Below, one piece after another: positions 8,659-55,400 of a stretch of DNA of 64,000 bases; the stretch's first letter is position 1, and each line of letters begins with the position of its first letter. Below the pieces are notes generated by a model. The model made no database searches. It saw nothing but the letters and a program-made list of their open reading frames with translations, and had not been told where the DNA came from. The translations under genes and the position numbers were made by a program. Origin of the DNA: Hydractinia symbiolongicarpus (lineage: Eukaryota; Cnidaria; Hydrozoa; Anthoathecata; Hydractiniidae). Where the stretch lies: NCBI RefSeq assembly GCF_029227915.1, contig NC_079879.1, forward strand, positions 21,220,501 through 21,284,500, given 5' to 3'.

Positions 8659-8751
8659 TAATACAATCCAAATAAAATAAACGAAAGCCCTGAGAAATAG
8701 GTTGCTTTAGTACGCCTCCTGGAAATACAAAACTCGCGTTTCAAGATTTTA

Positions 8752-8798
8752 CACGGCTGTTTCAGCTAGCGAGATTTCGGAAACTCAGACTGCGCATG
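8752..8798 (+). repeat. Left terminal inverted repeat of the RAG1-like transposon
   Basis: CACGGCTGTTTCAG at 8,752-8,765, then a 12-base insert-containing spacer, then CGGAAACT and AGACTGCGCATG ending at 8,798. It matches the right end in both outer and inner blocks, but the distance between blocks is 10 bases longer here. An A-run follows directly (8,801-8,809). Confidence 0.85.
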
Positions 8799-9231
8799 TC
8801 AAAAAAAAATTTAAAATAAGGACTGGGGCGAGTTGCGCTTAAAAGTAAACAAATTTTAGGGTAGCTAGCACCAGGTTTAATAGGCATTTTAATCACATAA
8901 ACCAACTTAAGGACTGGAAACTAAGTGGTTTAAATAAAATATAGTCCTATACCAATAAGATTAATTCAAATACAAAGCTATTCGCTTGTTGCCTAGCTAA
9001 AACAAAACAAAAACTTTCAACCTCCATTTTGAAGACTGTGGACACCATGCCAACTTAAAGCAAAATATTTTCAGATACGAAGTTATCCCACAGATAATTT
9101 TTATAAAAATCATTCAAAGATAGTTACGAGATACGAATAAAAAAAGAACTGTAGGTGTATCAGTACATTACGAATTGATATTGTATCAAACATTAGGTAC
9201 TTTTTTTTCAAAATTTTTGTTAAAGTTCAAG

Positions 9232-12200
9232 ATGGCTACTGGGGATTTACACCTAGCTCGGTTGAACAAGCTGTGTCGAATATGTGGAAACACTCTGCCT
9301 GGACGATCACATATTGTCCAAGAGCACATAAAGAACTTGGACAGTATTTTCAGAGCTGATTTTTATTCTGATCGGGCAGGCATTCACCCAAAAAAATTCT
9401 GTCACTCGTGCTTTGCTACAATAAGTAATGTCCTAAAACGTGACTCAGCTACCGCTATTGTGCCTGTTAAATGGTATACACATAAAGACACCGAGTGCAA
9501 AACATGCATATTAAGTGCACAAAAAAAGAGAGGTGGCAAACCTATGAAAAGAAGGGGCGGTGGTAACCCAACACACAAAGCTGTGGATTCCGCAGAAAAA
9601 ACTTGGACACCCCTAGAACTTAATAAAATTTACAGAAAAACCTCTGAACTTTTTGACTATAGTGGAAACGTTCTCTCAGACATAAATATCAGTGAAGGCA
9701 ACTGGGAACATCTGATTTGTGCTTTGTGTAGCAATATTTTAAAAAGGCCATTAATGATAAACCAATGTAACCACGTGTTTTGTGCCTTGTGTTTAACAAA
9801 TTGGTTGGAAAATTCAAATAGATGTCCCACCTGCAGCATCCCAACAACACCCGGGGATGTCTCGCCTGGTTTGTGCATTTCCAGGATTTTAAACACACGA
9901 GTTGTCAAGGGAACATGTGGTTGTTCATTTAAACTGCTGTCTGCACAATCGCACACATGCTCTCCAGCATTGTCATTTACAACACTAGAGATGATGCAGT
10001 TGAGCCCTTCCAAGCCTGTACCGAAAAAGGTAGAAGAATGCATTGCTCATGTGGTTGGAATAAAAATGCAGCAGTCAAACTTTCCGAATAAAACTGTCCA
10101 ATTGCCCAGTGGAAGTTCACAAGTAAGATTACTTATGTATGGAGTGGACTCAGTAAAAGTGATTTGACATTGACTTTTTTTAACAAGCAACTGATTTTCA
10201 AACGGCTGATAAAGCAAAAAATTTTGATCTTAGCAATTTTAAGGCTGAAATCAAAACTGAAAATAAGTTGCTTTTGTATATGTCTATATATGTGCATACC
10301 TAGGTTATCATTTTTTTACAATTCCAGTGAAATGTTTCTTATACACATTTTTTATACAAAAAACAAGCCATAATAAGAACAAGACAAATTTTAAAATGTT
10401 CAGAGTAAATAATTAAAAATAATAATAAATATAAGTATATAAGTGGCTAGAGGGGTCACAGAATATAGGAAGTTTTGGGGGTCAATAAAAACCATTCTAT
10501 ATATTAGGAGATTTACTAAAATTTTGATGTGCCCACCCTAAATGCTAAGGCGTCTACATCGTTAAGTGATCTTATATAAAAAATGTGTATAACTACTTTA
10601 TACAAAAATACAAAACTATGCTATGTTATATTAAAAATAATGTACACATAATTGTCTGTAACAATATGATAATTTTAATAGTAATATTACATTTTACATA
10701 AAACAAATTAATAACATATGTTCCATATTTTAGCCATTGACAATAACACCCATTAGAATTCCTCGCAAGTCTTCTGATGAAACATGTGAAAGGAATGTGC
10801 GGAAAAGAGCAAATACAGCCAAGGAGTTAATCCATCTGATGTCTGGTGAAGAAACCCAATCTGTCACAAAACAGACCACAGCACTGCTAAAGTCTATGGA
10901 AGAAAGTGACAGAAATACTATCATTAAAAATTTGGGTACAGAAGTCATTATTCCAGCCAATCACATCACAGCAATGAAATCAAATTTAAACATGCCATGG
11001 AATCAACTACGTGAAATATCACGTTGGTTGAAAACATTCAACATAAAAATTGAATCAGAAAAAAAAGCAAGAAGTGTCGCTGCTGAATGGGTAGGCCAAG
11101 GACTGAGAGTTGAGCTGGCTCCTCTCACCAAATTATCAGTTGGAAACAGGGTATCCGTTATACCTAGGCCCTGGGGGTATCTGTATAATGTAGTTGGCCA
11201 CATTCTGTATCAACTCAAAAAGCTAGAATGTCACAATTTACTTGTAAAACATAGTTTCATTCCTGACAATGAGATCCATGTTAAAATTGGTGGAGACCAT
11301 GGAGGAAATAGTTTTAAAATGGCATATCAAATAGGCAATGTTCTAAACCCAAACAAGAAGGAAAACACAATAATGTTTAGCATTTTTGAAGGTAACAAAC
11401 ATTAATGCAATATATTACAAATATGAAAAAAAAAAAATTAAAACTGGAATTTCCAAAATTCTATGCATGTGATGTCTAATTGTGATCTAAAGTAGAAATG
11501 ATCTAAGTGATCTAAAGTAGAAATCAAAACATTTTTTATATTTTTTTTTTAAATTAGGGAAAGACACAAGAACAAACTTAAGAGTCTGCCTTGAACGGTT
11601 TCGACCACAAATAAAAATGCTGCAACAAGTCAAATATAAAGAGTCGATATTCCGTGTATTTATGTATGGCGACTACGAATTTCTGTGTGCAATGTATGGT
11701 ATAACTGGTGCAAATGGTAAATATTAATTACTTAAGATCTGGGGCAAGTTGCTAGTTGATAATCAAAATTAATTAATTTTTGACCACAAATAAAAATGCT
11801 GCAACAAGTCAAATATAAAGAGTCGATATTCCGTGTATTTATGTATGGCGACTACGAATTTCTGTGTGCAATGTATGGTATAACTGGTGCAAATGGTAAA
11901 TATTAATTACTTAAGATCTGGGGCAAGTTGCTAGTTGATAATCAAAATTAATTAATTTTTACAGAACTTTTTTTGCAACTTCATAAAGTTCCTGTAGTTT
12001 AACAATGGGTTTTTACTACGCAGATATGGGAAATGCATAGTTAAAAATGGTTTATTTTTAAAAGTTTCTAATAAAATATGTATACTTTAACATTTGTGTT
12101 TAGGGCGTCACAGCTGTTTGTTTTGCAACATTACCTCAAAACTAATGAACATCCCAGTGTTTACTCGCAAGAAATTTAAGAAAAGGTCACTGGCGACACT

Positions 12201-13880
12201 TGAAGAAAATTTAGCAGATTTCCGTGAAAGTGGTGGGAGCCCTAAAAATGCGAAAGAATTTTATAATGTCATTGACAACATATTTTTTGACATACCTATT
12301 GATCAAGTATACATCATATTTTTATGCTTTTCCACTGCAAGTTGATTTAATAATCCCAAAATAAAATCTATATAAACACCTAATTTTAGGTCTGTATTCC
12401 TGGTCTTCATATTTCCTTGGGTGTATATCAAAAGATGTTTAAAATGTTTGAGTCTTCTTGCCAAGACTATGATGTAAAAATAGCTCTGCTGTTGGCAACA
12501 GAAGACAATGAACTGGATTCAGATTATGGTGACTACATCGAAGTCCTTAAAGAAACAAATGACTTGCAGCAAAAGCTGGAAGATGAAAAAGCCAAATTAG
12601 CAAACCAGCAAGATCAGTTAAACTGGCTTGTAATATCTGGTGGCTTACAACGAAATATACTGACGTACGAGAAAAGTATAATAAAAACTGAGAAGAAAAT
12701 CACAGAATTAGAATTAGAAATCTCAACCTTGGGAAACAACAAAAGAATTTTAGTGGGTATGATCATTTTTATTACCTAAGTAATTTTTTGTGATATTCGC
12801 AAATGTTTTTTTGTCTGGAAATTCCAAGAAATTTAATTCCCGAAAAAAAACTTTCCAAAATTATAATTTTCATTCTGATCTTATGATGCAAGCCTTATAT
12901 TCTCTCCAATCTAAAGCTATGTTTAATAGTTTGTTCATCTTATTTTAGGTGTTGGTCCTTGTGCTTCTTCAATAGATAAAACGCTGCAAAAAATGGGTGT
13001 TGAACGTCAGGCCTACCATGGCCAAAGTTTTATCGGCAACCATGTACATAAATTGCTAAAGGTTTGTTAATACTAACAATAATGTAGCAATTTAAAAATA
13101 ACATATTTAAAGAAAATTAAAAAAACAATCTTGCTCTTATAGAAAGAAAACATCCAAAATTTAACATCCAGCATTAAAGAGATTGTTGCAGCACAAAAGC
13201 ATGATGACCAGCTTATTCACAGTGTGAATTTAGAAATGGATAAGTACGACATGTTATTTACTTACTTTGCAGAAGTTCATAACATTTACAATTCGGCAAA
13301 ATATCTGTCATGTGAGGAAATACTGGCTTTAGGTGAGAAACTTGTTCCTTTTTTTAATAATAAATAAGTTTTTTTTAAAATTTCATGTGCCAAAAACAAA
13401 ACAAAAAGAAAGAATAATATACATATAGTACATAATTCTAGAAATTTCAATTAATAAATTCATGATGCATCTGCGAACTAACTGGCCAAAAGTTAATATT
13501 TCACCAAAACTGCATATGCTTGAAGATCATGTCACTGAGTTCATAGCAAAATGGAATGTTGGATTTGGGTTTTATGGCGAACAAGGTAAACAGCCACTTA
13601 AATTTGTAACCTGGTAACACCAAAATTTGTGTTTTTTACCAAAATGTGTTATTTTTCAGAAAATGTGTAGCTAGCTAGCTTAAATGTCAAATTATAACAT
13701 TTTTAAGGTGGAGAAAGCTTGCATCATGAAATCAACAGGATGTCGAGCAGGTACAGCTGCATCAAAAACCCAGTCGAGCGGTTACGAAATACATTAAAGC
13801 AACATTTTGTTAATGTAAATCCTGAATCGAGCCAATTAAAACCAAAAATTAAAAAAAGAAAAATTGCACGTGAAGAATAA
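9232..13880 (+). CDS. RAG1-like transposase (zinc/RING N-terminus plus DDE core)
   Basis: Exons 9232..10122, 10734..11391, 11558..11716, 12104..12306, 12390..12756, 12949..13061, 13143..13332, 13442..13585, 13708..13880: 2,898 bases, 965 residues, all GT-AG and in frame. The N-terminus resembles RAG1: C15-R-I-C18, then H52-P-x-x-F-C57-H-x-C60, and C89-x-x-C92. A C3HC4 RING spans residues 163-201 (C-x-x-C ... C-N-H-V-F-C ... C-P-T-C), followed by a second zinc segment near 225-240. The core aligns by eye with RAG1: D485 (G-G-D-H-G-G; human D600), D555 (Y-G-D-Y-E-F; D708), C574-L-F-C577, H885-x4-H890 (H937/H942) and E911 (G-G-E-S; E962). Residues about 660-740 look like a coiled coil not expected in RAG1. 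Start: ATG 9,232 (AAGATGG) precedes the first Cys pair; an upstream in-frame codon at 9,175 is less likely. Confidence 0.9.
11558..11716 (+). other. Transposase exon 3 carrying the second catalytic Asp
   Basis: The acceptor is AAATTAG before 11,558 and the donor is GTAAAT after 11,716. The exon encodes K-D-T-R-T-N-L to Y-G-I-T-G-A-N and holds D555. Only this copy has an acceptor; its 3' duplicate at 11,782-11,895 does not. Confidence 0.75.
11603..11960 (+). repeat. Perfect 179-bp tandem duplication over transposase exon 3
   Basis: Bases 11,603-11,781 are repeated at 11,782-11,960 without a difference that I can see. The unit covers the 3' part of exon 3, including the codon for the second catalytic Asp and the donor site, plus part of the following intron. 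The second copy lacks a splice acceptor in front of it, so it should stay intronic. The identity implies a very recent event or an assembly artefact. Confidence 0.85.
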
Positions 13881-14671
13881 CTTTTAGACTTACAGCTTAG
13901 ATAGCTAGTTATATCTTTAACTGCATATTAGCATTACTTTGCAAGCTCCTTTAGTCTTTGCATTATTTCAAAGGTGGATCAGCTGGTCTAGAAAGAAAAA
14001 GAATTGAACAGTTAATTAGCTTACTACATGCATAGTTCATTTTTATTTGACTTTTTGTCGAGCTTACGTTAGTAGTGTATGAGACGCAGAAACCTTATTT
14101 AGAGTTACAGAATTGTTTATATAGAATGTTGTTTAGTGTTGTTATTCTGTGAAATATTAGCTTAGTAAACTACAACAGTTTTAATGCCTACAATAAATCA
14201 TACAGTAGATTATGTCAAAGAGGGAGTTAAAATTTTCAGGTTTTACACTAACTTTTATTGCCAGAATTCAGCGCTCTAGCATTCTTTCAGAAGTACTGAT
14301 ACAGTTTTTTCGTTTTTCTTACCTTGTAGATGAGCCTTTCAGCTTTCCAAAAATATATAATACACCAGCCACATAACTTCGCAACGTCCACAAAACCAAA
14401 AATTAGTTGGAACAAGTTGCCATGTTAATTTTAACAAAAAAAAGTATGCCTTCAAAACTGCCACAGTATTACTCCAACAGCATGCTTGTCGCAAAGGTAA
14501 AAGAAAGATTTAGCTTCCAGCGTGTTGAAATGCTTTAAAAAACTAAATTAAATCCACTGAAATAGATTCTATCATGCAAAAGCGATTTCAAAAAGTTAGT
14601 TACTTATTTATCATGATTGTTTTTATTTGCGCCCGCCATCTTGCGCCTCAACGTGGCCGTAATTATTGACG
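13881..14671. other. 3' part of the RAG1-like transposon, no second gene
   Basis: Between the transposase stop and the right terminal repeat no open frame of useful length exists on either strand, so no RAG2-like protein fits. On the minus strand there is a CAAGATGGCGGGCG motif (14,632-14,644) with a short frame of only about 11 codons, and a good-looking donor near 14,333. These could belong to an antisense transcript, but that is not supported further. Confidence 0.5.
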
Positions 14672-14708
14672 CATGCGCAGTCTTAGTTTCCGCTCTGAAA
14701 CAGCCGTG
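14672..14708 (-). repeat. Right terminal inverted repeat of the RAG1-like transposon
   Basis: In reverse complement it reads CACGGCTGTTTCAG, AG, CGGAAACT, A, AGACTGCGCATG. It is 37 bases against 47 at the left end. The inner end forms the palindrome GCATGCGC, which resembles an NRF1-type promoter motif. Confidence 0.85.
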
Positions 14709-14886
14709 TTTAATGAAGGGCCCGTCTAAAAATTGTCAAAAAAAGATGTGGGGGTGAGAATTATGCACTTTTTTGTCTTTTGTCGCAATCGTCTTTTAAA
14801 AATTTAAACAACGGTAACGAATTAAAAAGCCCCTGAAGTTTAAAATAATCCAGATATCGTAATTGACCAGATAAACACTGGTCATG

Positions 14887-24325: not shown

Positions 24326-26299
<1,974 letters not shown>

Positions 26300-49400: not shown

Positions 49401-52400
49401 TATGCCTTTGCAAAAATAAATACGCAAATCACTTTCCTTTGATTTGTAAAAAATTGTACAGTTAATATTGTAAGTTTAAGGTATAAAAACTAACAGTAAA
49501 AACGTCTCACCACTTGAGCTAGCAATTCATTTTCCTTCAAGCCTGGATTCTCTAGACCATTTAATATCTTTGCTGCTTCATGTAATCGATTTAAGCGATA
49601 TAAGCAGTATGCCTTTTCAAACGTCATTTGCAACAACCTATATTAAGATATAATATGATACATGATAAAATACTAATAAATGTGTAGGACTGTCAGTTTG
49701 TTTGTCTGTATGTCTATAACGCTTAGAGTACATATATTCTTAGCAAGTAGGACACATTTTAAAATCAAGAAAACAAAATGGATTTTGGAGCTGAAAGGTT
49801 GATATCATTAAAAAAAAATTAATAAACATTCATATCCCTAAAACTTTTTTTGGTATCTTTGTAACCATTCCCTGAAAGCACATGGTTCTATACAATCTCT
49901 TGATAAGCATTTCAAGCAGTTAGTGCAGCTTATTTAAATCTCATGTTTCAGTGCATTGCTGATGTGATTAAAATTTGTTGCCGTAGAGGTTTGCTTCCGT
50001 AATAAAATTGATAATTTGCACCTGTAGGCCTATTAATTACCCCATTATATTAATATTTTAATACACGTGTCTGTTTGCAACACACAAAAAAGGATGTGTT
50101 TTTTCCTTTGAAGTAGCCAAAAGGGTGTTGATTTCTTTGAGTGTTAAGCACAAAGCATGAAGTAGACTGACAACATATTAAATTAAATTAGTTAAGCCAT
50201 TATATATAGTCTATAACTTTAGGGGGAAATAACTTGATGAACTAAATAATATAAATAATATCATGTCATGAACAAGCGAGTTTATTCTAGGCTACGTTTC
50301 AACAGCTACAGCTGTCATCGACGGGCAATGATCGTAATAATCTTTGGCTATTTATTATTTGAAGAGATACTTAGAGGATCGAAATTAACCAATCAGATCA
50401 CAGTAATTAAAATAATTAACTTTTTCACGGACCCAGATAAATTGATTAAAATCTTTCCTTTTTCTAAAAGTTTGCTTTATGTTACGTTTTTTTTTCTAAA
50501 AGTTCGCTTTTTTGTTACGTTTGTCCCGAACCATTTTTTTGTACTTTTTTCCTAAATGTTCACTTTCCGAAGTGCGGGTAACCATATTTCTGGAAGTTAA
50601 TAGGAAATACTATTGATATGAGTATTTGTGTCTATACTATTTATGGTTTCTTTTACTTTTTTTGCTGTCCAACCAGACTCTCGGTCAACGATCTTTTTAT
50701 TGTCCCAGTCTATAACATGATCATTCTTCCAGCTATGGTCTGCAATCTCATTTTTGTCTGTATCTGCAATGCATATGGCTCTTTTGTGCTTTTGCACATT
50801 TTGTTTAAACATTCGTTTTGTTTCACCGATATAAACAGCATCACAATCCTTTTATGGGATTTCATAGACAATATTACATTGACTCTCTAGACATATTTTG
50901 TCTTTCGGATGTGACAGTATACTACGTAGCATGTTTTTAGATTGAAACACTGGCTTTATTTTATGATCTTTCAATACCTGACGAAGTATAATACTTGTCC
51001 CTGGTATACATGGCATACATACAGGGGCTACTGGATCATTTTCCGCATTTTCCACGTCACTGCTCTTATCAGTCCTGTTCATGATTTTCCTCTCAACCTT
51101 TTTAATGGCCTGTCTCGAGTACCCATTTGCAAGTAAGGCGTTGTTTATATGAGATAACTCTTTCTTTCGGTCATTCTCTTCACTGACTACATTGGCTGCT
51201 TTGTCCAGTAATGAGGACACTACACTTTCTTTGCATGACACTTGTTCATGGCATGATAATTTAAGAGACAAGAGAGGAGTTGAACGTCCTCCACCATACC
51301 TTAGTTTAAAGGGGCGATTGTGGAAGTCCCATGAAATGCCACATAGTGATAGTGTCACTTTAAAAAACACCCAGTCCGGTCTGTGAATGTTTGGCGCTAG
51401 GAAGGGCATCCAGGTGTAAAACAATGCCAAAACTCTTTATTAATGGCCGTAAGAATAGTTGATCAGACAAACTGCGTAAACAGGGCTGGAACTCTAAGGA
51501 GTGAAGGTGTCGCTCACGGTAGGACAGATGTCAGGTGTGAGCATCGTCAGACCGTTACTCAGGTATCACATCACAAGGTAGATAACACTAGGTTGAGGAT
51601 GGCTAGTGTAAATGTTGGTACTCTAAGAGGTAGAGCAGGTGAAGTAGTTGAAATGTTAAAACATAGATCCGTTGATATGTGTTGTGTTTAGGAAGTCAGG
51701 TGGAAAGGAGCTTCAGTGAGATTTGTGGAAGGTAGGAGGGCAAGGTATAAGCTTTTTTGGATTGGTAATAGTGATGGATATGGAGGAGTTGGCATATTCG
51801 TTGCAGAGAAGTGGGTGGAAAAAGTAATAGATGTTATGTGTGTTAATAGTCGTATTATAGTGATAAAGTTTTTGATAGGTAATAGGATTGTCACTTTTCT
51901 GTCAGTTTATGCTCCACAGTGTGGACTCAGTGAGGAAGATAAAGGTAAGTTTTATGATGAGTTAATAGCAGTCACATCAAAGTTTGGAGACACTGAACTT
52001 GTCATGGTGGGTGGCGACTTTAATGGCCATGTTGGGAAGTCATCTGAAGGTTATAGAGGTGTGCATGGAGGCTATGGATTTGGGAGCAGAAATAAGGAAG
52101 GGGAGAGAGTGCTTGAGTTTGGAATGGCAACGGACATGGTGGTTTGCAACACATCATTCAATAAAAGACAGAGTAGGCTGATAACATATGAGTCAGTTGG
52201 TTGTAAGACACAGATAGATTACTTCCTGGTTAGAAAGTCAGACAAGAAAGTGGTGAAGGACGTGAATGTTATATCGGGGGAAGAGTGTGTTTCCCAGCAT
52301 AGGTTGCTGGTTTGTGATACTATCTTGAAGAGTGTTAAAGAAGCCAAGGCTTTCCCTTGTCGAAAAGTCTGGAAGCTGAAGGAAGGGATTGTAGCAAGAC

Positions 52401-55400
52401 AATTTAGTCCAAAAGTTCAGCAGTTAGCCCACAATGGTCAATGTGATAGTGACAATGTTGAAATTACTTGGACTACTTTAAAGAATTGTCTTCTAGAAGC
52501 TTCTGATGATACCTGTGGGTGGACGAAAGGACCAGCTAGACATAGACAGACCTGGTGGTGAAATAATGAGGTTGACCAGTGTATAAAGGAAAAGAGGAAA
52601 GAGTGGAAGTCAGGTGGTAGTAAAAATATTTACTTAGAAGCTAAGCGTTGTGCTCGTACAGCAGTGTATAAGGCAAAATCAGAAGCAGAGAGAAACAGAT
52701 TTGCAGATGTGTTAAGAAGGGAAGACCAGCGCAATGAGGTATTCAAGATAGCAAAGCAAATGAAGAAGGCTAATCAAGATGTTGTAGGTGAGAAGTGTAT
52801 ACGTAATGATGAAGGTGTTTTGGCTAGCACAGAGGAGGAGGAAAGGGTAGCTTGGAAGAATTATTGTCAGAGGTTGCTTAACACTGAGTTTGATTGGGAT
52901 GAGGATAATTTGTCTGATGATGATGTTGTAGAAGGGACAGCTATGCAGATCAAGACAAAATGGGTAGTGGAGGCTATTAGGAAATTGAAGATTGGCAAGG
53001 CTGCAGGAGTATCACGCATTGTTGCAGAGATGGTAAAAGCATTTGGATATATTGGAGTTGAGCTTATTACAAGTCTTGCTAACCAGATTATAAAGGATGG
53101 TGCTATTCCGAGTGAGTGGCAGTCGAGTGTAATAGTGAATTGTTTCAAGGGCAAGGGTGATGTATTAGAAAGGGGTAACTATGAATGAAAGTTATTGAAA
53201 GAATGATTGATAAGTTACTTAGAGAATGAATTGATATAGATAAGATGCAATTTGGTTTTGTTCCAGGGCGTGGGACTACAGATGCAATACTTTTACTCTC
53301 GCAGCTTCAGGAAAAGTATTTAGGAAAGAGAAAGAATCTCTATTGTGCCTTTGTATATTTAGAAAAAGCTTTTGATAGAGTGCCACGTAAACTTATTTGG
53401 TGGGCTATGAGAAAATTAGGTGTGAATGAGTGGCTAGTTACGATGGTACAGTCTATGTACAGCAATGCTAGAAGTCGTGTCAGGATTAACGATTCACTTA
53501 GTGATGAATTTAGTGTAAATGTTGGTGTACATCAGGGTGCTGTACTTAGTCCTTTGTTGTTTGTTCTAGTCTTAGAAGCGCTGTCGATGGAGTTCAAAAC
53601 AGGTTATCCATGGGAGTTATTGTATGCAGATGATTTGGTTCTCATAGCAGAGTCGATGGAAGAATTAGTTGAAAAGTTTGAGAAGTGGAAGAAAGGACTA
53701 GAAGAGAAAGGGCTAAAGGTAAACACAGCAAAGTCTAAAGTCATGATTAGTAGCATTGCAGCCAAGTGTGACCTTGTAGTTGGAAAGTGGCCTTGTGGAG
53801 TTTGCAGGAAAGGGGTTGGTAGTAACTCAATTTTTTGTGAGACTTGCAAGCATTGGGTACATAAGAAGTGCAGTAGTATTAGTGGAAGGTTAAGAGCTGA
53901 CATTCAGTTTGTATGCACTCGTTCCAAAGGTGAGATTATAGAGAATGAAGTATTTCCAAATGACGTACAACAGTGGCTCGATAGAGATAGTTGAGAACTT
54001 CTGTTACTTAGGTGATATGTTGGGCAGTGAAGGGGGTGTTGGAAGAAGTGTTACTTGCAGGATAGGTTCTGCTTGGAAAAAGTTCAGAGAGTTACTTCCT
54101 TTGTTGACTAGCAGAGTCCTGTCAATTGAGGTAAAAGGTAGGTTGTATGAGGCCTGTGTAAGAAGTGTTATGTTGCACGGTAGTGAGACATGGGCAGTGA
54201 AGCAGGAAGATCTTGACCGTTTAGAAAGGAATGATATGAGAATGGTTAGGTGGATGTGTAACGCCAGTCTGAGAGACAGAAAGAGTTCAGATGAGCTAAG
54301 AAGCAGACTAAGTCTCCGTAGAATTAAAGATGTTATCCAAATAAGAAGATTGAATTGGCTGGGGCACTTGGAAAGAATGGAGGAGGATAATTGGGTATAA
54401 TTGAGACTTGATAGTTCCTGGGGCAAAGCCCAGAGGCAGACCAGCAAGAAGGTTATAAGGACAGACTTGATACAGAGGAAGTTGAGTTTAGATCTAACAC
54501 AGTCTAGATCAGATTGGAAGAGGGTCATTAATATACCTCATCCAACCCATGCTAGCATGGAAAACGGACGTTAAGCCGAGAATGATGATGAATGACGATG
54601 ACTGAACAGATAAGTGGTAATATTTTTAAAAAAATTATTAAACAGCAATATGGAGCCCCCATGTTGGCTGAGGTGAGATTGTTAGAAAAAACTAAATTGA
54701 AAATCACAAGATATTCAAATCATCTTAGATTTTCTTTACGTTGTCATCACAACAACATTATTCAAAATCATTATTATTCAAAAGACCTCCGTCTACAATG
54801 CAAAGTGAAAACGGAGAGAAGTCGGAAAATACTACTCCGTGCAAGTCGCCAATTGTTGCAGGAGCGGATTCATCTGAATCATATGGTTAGAGGTAATCTG
54901 CGGAATAGAACGACAGAAATTAATGGAAATATATGTGCGGTACTGTCAGATGATTGATTGTGCAAAACCAGACATCTCAAAAAGTTCTCCAATATCAATA
55001 GACCAGTGGTTATTGAAAATACTTCCATTGATACATCGAAGTGGGTCATGAACTTTTTTTTTCCAAAGAACTTTCGGAGAAAGAGAGCAGCGTTCTATCA
55101 AAAGGGATGAATTATTGTCTAACTCCAACAAGTTTACCAACTAAAGAAATTGTTGCGAGTGTTGAACAGGCAATTAAAGTATTGTCAAAGAAAGAAGCAG
55201 TCCGTGCGAAAATTAGCCTGACTCTACAATATGCAAAAGTGCCAGAAGACAACATGACGAAACAGGAACGCATCACACTGTCTAAATTAAGAAAGGATAA
55301 AGATATTATGTTCTTGCCAGCTGATAAAGGTCAAACGACGGTCATTTTAGACAAAAATGATTATATACGCATGCCTCAAACAAGATCCAACAGAAACTAT

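Follow-up and report, generated by a model that had tools for sequence, protein, structure and literature searches.

A putatively autonomous, young Chapaev transposon with a RAG1-type N-terminal part and unequal ends in the cnidarian Hydractinia symbiolongicarpus

Chapaev transposons carrying Chapa and RING domains were reportedly described by Kapitonov and Jurka in 2007. According to published work, two Chapaev subgroups carry a Chapa domain followed by a RING, this arrangement is known from sea anemone and lancelet, and the ancestor of RAG1 has been inferred to have possessed both domains (PMC4411706). Since sea-urchin-type RAG1-like (RAGL) transposases are described as devoid of RING (PMC4411706), the origin of the RAG1 N-terminal part is unsettled. 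Chapaev elements, whose transposase corresponds to DUF1280, a family placed in one clade with RAG1 (PMC3985635), have CAC/GTG ends and duplicate 3-4 bp of their target (PMC4079192), while RAGL and Transib elements duplicate 5 bp (PMC7204232). In addition, the motifs C(2)C, LH and H(4)H have been named for Chapaev and its relatives (PMC4079192, PMC12730594). The element described here occupies 5957 bp (positions 8752-14708) of a 64,000-nt stretch of the Hydractinia symbiolongicarpus genome (hereafter the window; NC_079879.1, contig C5 of the searched assembly, 21220501-21284500). It is very probably an autonomous and very recently mobile DDE transposon of the Chapaev group (CMC/CMCT), with one gene joining a RAG1-type N-terminal part to a DUF1280 core.

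Both termini open with CACGGCTGTTTCAG in inverted orientation, a second common block, matching at 20 of 21 bp, is located inside, and a TTTA direct repeat abuts the element on the left and on the right (Table 1). In the predicted gene model, nine exons, all with GT/AG borders, splice to 2898 bases, or 965 codons without internal stop. The catalytic acidic residues and their partner residues are found at D485, D555, C574/C577, H644, H885/H890 and E907 or E911, the latter two being alternative candidates for the catalytic Glu. No second gene was found, the longest ATG frame on either strand of 13881-14708 having 54 codons. The initial annotation of this DNA had proposed a complete transposon of probable cnidarian origin, with an intact nine-exon gene, all DDE residues, inverted termini starting with CAC inside a short direct repeat, a RAG1-type N-terminus and no RAG2. 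These structural claims agree with the present data, in contrast to its family assignment discussed below.

Searches of the genome (480.9-Mb assembly, 76 contigs) provided evidence for a mobile element. The left 100 bp matched at least 40 places, 23 of them 100% identical, and the right 100 bp matched 37 places (24 of them 100% identical); copy numbers are minimum values, 40 of the 45 candidates from the left-end search having been scored. As the initial annotation had expected, the two ends recur together: left and right ends face inward at at least 28 places, window included, which implies a pairing far above chance. Within 12 kb no left-left and no right-right pair was found, a result which inheritance alone would also predict. 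Judged by their end identities, 23 of the 28 listed pairs belong to a young family and five are older. Both ends are retained at 19 of the 20 fetched loci, the right end being absent from L015, of which a 508-bp remnant of the left part is left. All 20 two-ended copies (19 fetched and the window copy) are flanked by a perfect 4-bp target duplication, which can be extended to 5 bp in none of the 19 fetched copies. One pair of the older subfamily (L034/L046) has a single mismatch in its duplication (GGTT/GGCT), the duplications of five other pairs (L029/L058, L030/L059, L032/L060, L033/L051 and L040/L052) agree by eye, and the terminus of L047 reads CAT, not CAC. Empty sites were identified as well. 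L013 is inserted in a satellite of about 203 bp; once its flanks are joined with a single ATAT, their alignment to each of seven neighbouring units of the satellite spans 158 bp, is gapless and shows 85-92% identity. The element has fixed ends, moves as a unit and duplicates 4 bp of its target on insertion.

Over aligned bases, the 19 fetched copies are 99.78-99.97% identical to the window copy (difference at most 0.22%), and all 965 codons can be read as modelled in 11 of the 20 copies. L011 carries a 12-bp in-frame deletion, the frames of L019, L023 and L027 are broken by deletion (L027 without a stop), and five copies with one or three units of a 179-bp repeat (L010, L013, L014, L016, L028), whose gap is unplaceable in the alignment, lie outside the intact-frame count. 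On the basis of these identities, the window family is judged to be very young and to have moved very recently. A host gene domesticated from a Chapaev element, its transposon status lost, could also possess a long intact frame and many introns; such a gene is barely conceivable here, given identical recurring ends with differing 4-bp duplications, near-identical copies and empty sites.

Pfam searches with the window protein returned DUF1280 (PF06918) at 4.3e-15 (56.4 bits, the cut-off being 25), and C574/C577, H644 and H885/H890 correspond to the C(2)C, LH and H(4)H motifs, respectively. Together with the DDE residues, the 4-bp duplication and the 5'-CAC...GTG-3' termini, all the Chapaev (CMC) traits examined are present. 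The initial annotation had placed the element in the RAG1-like family; another DDE family, DUF1280, proves closer, though it is itself a distant relative of RAG1. A true RAGL or Transib transposon which has lost RAG2, as then proposed, would account for the N-terminal match to RAG1 and for the CAC termini. It would also account for the two Cys standing 19 and 22 residues from the second Asp, the same spacing as in the RAG1 core if the catalytic Asp is correctly assigned there. The same proposal fails on duplication length (4 bp, not 5 bp), on the core family, with DUF1280 found and no match to the RAG1-core Pfam family up to E=1, and on the second-gene test, which revealed no convergent RAG2-like gene. 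Because of the DUF1280 core, the 4-bp duplications and the lack of a second gene, the element is assigned to Chapaev and membership in RAGL or Transib, now very improbable, was rejected.

The likeness to RAG1 is located in the N-terminal part. In the window protein a Chapa domain precedes a RING, as in the Chapa-RING subgroups, the Chapa reference being RAG1 and not the Repbase Chapa model; the Pfam matches also include RING and RAG1 importin-binding (7.9e-6) families. When the first 150 codons, which exclude the RING, were compared with the PDB, only three RAG1 sequences were retrieved under an E-value of 0.1 (best 1.1e-6), the other matches being two antibody chains (0.25 and 0.89). For the single window protein, the best single stretch, 38-229, is by far that matching RAG1. 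An N-terminal profile of four families from this genome (the window family F1 and its sisters F5, F6 and F9) has RAG1 102-378 as its best PDB match (5.1e-20), the best non-RAG1 RING protein following at 7.1e-15. Because this profile prefers RAG1 102-378 over other RING proteins, the predicted Chapa-RING-zinc finger module is considered RAG1-type and colinear with it. In exon 1 of F1, F2, F5 and F6, a basic GGRP/GRP-like stretch, AT-hook-like, follows the Chapa domain; the nonamer-binding domain of RAG1 begins with a GGRPR motif.

Several results weigh against a connection with RAG1: 1) when the window protein was used singly, a two-RING chimera (1e-11) scored slightly above RAG1 (4.2e-11) in the PDB; 2) a protein search with the N-terminus alone, covering 733 candidates, had no match at E up to 1; 3) neither RAG1 nor Transib chains were retrieved from the PDB by the core profile up to E=10; and 4) comparison of the core profile with the RAG1 core gave a probability of 4%, the C-terminal parts aligning weakly but in the same order. 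Only the predicted N-terminus, i.e., Chapa domain, RING and trailing zinc finger, matches RAG1 colinearly, and the kinship of the Chapaev and RAG1 cores would rest on shared motifs and on the published work.

Compared with the Chapa-RING Chapaev elements described so far, the present one has the same Chapa-then-RING order, CAC/GTG ends, DUF1280 core and a duplication in the 3-4 bp range; it differs by an intact young family accompanied by five sister families in one genome, and by a difference of one helical turn between its ends. With RAG1, ProtoRAG and RAGL, it shares the colinear N-terminus (RAG1 102-378), CAC termini and bipartite, unequal ends, whereas its core family is another, its duplication has 4 bp, RAG2 is lacking and the end offset is 10-11 bp instead of the 4 of ProtoRAG. 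Transib elements have the same DDE residues with C(2)C and H(3-4)H motifs (PMC12730594), but have a 5-bp duplication (PMC7204232) and are described without N-terminal extension (PMC8355894). The N-RAG-TP transposon of Aplysia is likewise reported to carry a RAG1 N-terminus (PMC8355894, citing the original report). Chapa and RING domains in Chapaev are already published and the element, ordinary in kind, is a new, intact and young case. It is unusual in being intact and young, in that RING-bearing and RING-less sisters can be compared, and in the one-turn difference between its ends.

Exon 2, used as a query against the genome, had 145 matches, from which sister families were defined and copy pairs fetched for F2, F5, F6, F7 and F9 (F1b designating the older subfamily of F1); F3 and F4 are known from protein matches alone and lie outside the end comparison. 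All ten copies of these five other families that were read at both ends have perfect 4-bp duplications. An intact C3HC4 RING is present in F1, F5, F6 and F9. The F7 copy that was read aligns with the RING, but Tyr replaces the last Cys. In F2, whose protein is 56-57% identical to that of the window in the exon 2 region, no RING was found in any of the six frames. F2 nevertheless has 15 places of equal score with an open frame in the exon 2 search, and its two fetched copies are 99.8% identical. Since F2 is multi-copy without RING, these data suggest that the RING is unneeded for spread and that F2 has lost it. In two predicted proteins, P0001 and P0002, no RING was seen, although exons may have been missed, and a search of IMG/VR found no relative of P0001. 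In F9, no right end could be located for L073; that of the family is based on L074 and on a further copy, C1:9311809-9315480 (32 and 42). L071 and L072, considered as a further family, were rejected as such and are an F2 copy in a duplicated satellite.

The two ends of the element are unequal, a feature absent from the initial annotation. In F1, terminal and inner block are separated by 12 bp at the left end and by 2 bp at the right end, a difference of 10 bp. In F1 and its relatives, the spacers of 17 further left ends contain 55 substitutions, most of which are common to one older subfamily and represent fewer than 55 events, and no indel, in contrast to the next 48 bp, where 7 of the 17 carry indels. 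Three of these left ends (L041, L043, L044) have an indel within one of the blocks, terminal or inner. On the right, 17 further ends, four of them identical to that of the window, have no indel in blocks or spacer, against 11 of 17 beyond. The distance of a GCATGCGC box from the CAC, left/right, is 43/32 in F5 and F6 and 42/32 in F7 and F9, and the matching box of F1 (GCATGTC on the left, GCATGCGT on the right) stands at 42/32; further CACG motifs occur in some ends at 22, 23, 26, 52 and 55 from the box, only the one at the terminus being counted. The shift which best superimposes left on right ends is 10 in F1, F1b, F7 and F9 and 11 in F5 and F6, with scores reached by none of 2000 shuffles. 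F2 deviates from this pattern, as its box stands at 38/34 and a shift of 10 is tied with 4 (p 0.08). Between the six families, 73 of 210 comparisons match at left-end positions 13-26, and 116 of 180 at the terminal 12 positions. Genome-wide, the CACG-gap-GCATGCGC pattern has 1589 matches versus 102 for the reversed control, the first matches listed being a mixture of several unrelated repeats, which makes this an imperfect test of spacing. By these alignments, an offset of about one helical turn (10-11 bp) is kept in five of six families while the spacer sequence drifts, and is less clear in F2; as the families share ancestry, this points to conservation and not to independent events. Two-block ends with unequal spacers are also a feature of piggyBac, which belongs to another superfamily and has a TTAA target. 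In the open-access literature, itself available in part and with Repbase entries outside its scope, no report of a one-turn end difference in Chapaev was found, and the offset is apparently new.

The inner box might be a site for a host transcription factor and the 10-11 bp offset an inherited accident, a possibility to be taken seriously even if it is not the expected one. The box is palindromic and resembles an NRF1 site, and a YY1-like ATGGCG box recurs about 75 bp inside several right ends (window 14630-14645 and F1b, F2 and F6). A YY1-like factor has been reported to act on ProtoRAG ends (PMC7481187). The shared ancestry of the families, the departure of F2 and the block indels in three of the 17 F1-group left ends, by which the distance is not absolutely fixed, are also consistent with a host factor. 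A promoter site, on the other hand, would require no fixed distance from CAC, and five of six families keep the box at 42-43 bp in the left end and at 32 in the right end in spite of poorly matching positions 13-26, with a left spacer tolerating substitutions and no indels. Because its distance from CAC is nearly fixed, the inner box favours the transposase over a host factor.

If the transposase is the reader, it would recognize two sites at each end, the inner block and the CAC terminus, with two site spacings differing by about one helical turn across the two ends. By DDE cut-and-paste chemistry, it would cut at CAC and then join, possibly with a preference for unequal ends. The RING may serve as a ubiquitin-ligase or dimerisation module, dispensable for movement. 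The spacers of the recombination signal sequences differ by 11 bp, and those of ProtoRAG (27/31) by 4 (PMC8289069). It is conceivable, though rather unlikely, that Chapaev elements obey a 12/23-like rule, in which the transposase pairs a long-spacer with a short-spacer end having inner sites one helical turn apart, and that Chapa domain, RING and unequal ends are ancestral to the lineage from which RAG arose. Were this true, 12/23 logic would predate both RAG and the divergence of the Chapaev core from the RAG1/Transib core.

The initial annotation had also suggested that this locus could help to order the steps from transposon to V(D)J recombinase. This stands for the origin of the RAG1 N-terminal part and not for the RAG1 core or RAG2, because the core is that of a Chapaev element with a 4-bp duplication. 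A young Chapaev with a full RAG1-type N-terminus in a laboratory cnidarian makes the module testable in a living transposon, the RING-less F2 family representing a natural control. Likewise, the one-turn end difference offers a way to test whether 12/23 logic, as used in antibody-gene assembly, predates RAG.

Table 1. Features of the predicted Chapaev element, in window coordinates.
Feature	Position	Strand	Evidence or remark
Target-site duplication TTTA, left	8748..8751	.	Same as 14709-14712
Left end, terminal block CACGGCTGTTTCAG	8752..8765	+	17 further left ends: 6 substitutions, indels in 2/17
Left end, 12-bp spacer	8766..8777	+	17 further left ends: 55 substitutions, 0 indels
Left end, inner block CGGAAACTCAGACTGCGCATG	8778..8798	+	Complementary to 14672-14692 at 20/21
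Exon 1, codons 1-297: Chapa domain, RING, trailing zinc finger	9232..10122	+	Gene model and domain searches
Chapa (RAG1 N-terminal) domain	9268..9516	+	PF12560 7.9e-6; PDB best 1.1e-6 (RAG1)
RING C3HC4, codons 163-201	9718..9834	+	PF13923 1.9e-11
Trailing C-C-H-C zinc finger, codons 229-243	9916..9960	+	In region aligned to RAG1 through residue 378; putative metal binding
Exon 2	10734..11391	+	First catalytic Asp, D485, at 11295-11297
Exon 3	11558..11716	+	Second catalytic Asp, D555
179-bp tandem repeat, two units	11599..11956	+	Other copies have 0, 1, 2 or 3 units
Exon 4	12104..12306	+	C574 and C577, C(2)C motif
Exon 5	12390..12756	+	H644, LH motif
Exon 6	12949..13061	+	Gene model
Exon 7	13143..13332	+	Gene model
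Exon 8	13442..13585	+	H885/H890 (H(4)H), E907
Exon 9 with stop	13708..13880	+	E911
Right end, inner block	14672..14692	-	Complementary to left inner block at 20/21
Right end, 2-bp spacer	14693..14694	-	0 indels in 17 further right ends; two bases only, a weak test
Right end, terminal block CACGGCTGTTTCAG	14695..14708	-	Same as left terminal block
Target-site duplication TTTA, right	14709..14712	.	4-bp duplication

The 179-bp tandem repeat, also absent from the initial annotation, is built from the last part of exon 3 together with the first part of intron 3. It is present 0, 1, 2 or 3 times among young copies (L010, L013, L014, L016, L019, L023, L028), the zero-unit state being a copy with a large deletion, which indicates that unit number changes within the young family. 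L012 and L017 share ten changes and a one-base deletion inside 12 bp of intron 1 (window 10211-10222), perhaps a small inversion or a templated patch. L013 and L014, located about 15 kb apart, and L071 and L072 represent two Chapaev families in the same type of satellite of about 203 bp, duplicated along with it. Elsewhere in the window, a perfect TA repeat of 186.5 units occupies 24825-25197, and a region resembling a long interspersed nuclear element (51692-54400) contains a weak endonuclease match, below the cut-off, followed by a reverse transcriptase and a PHD finger.

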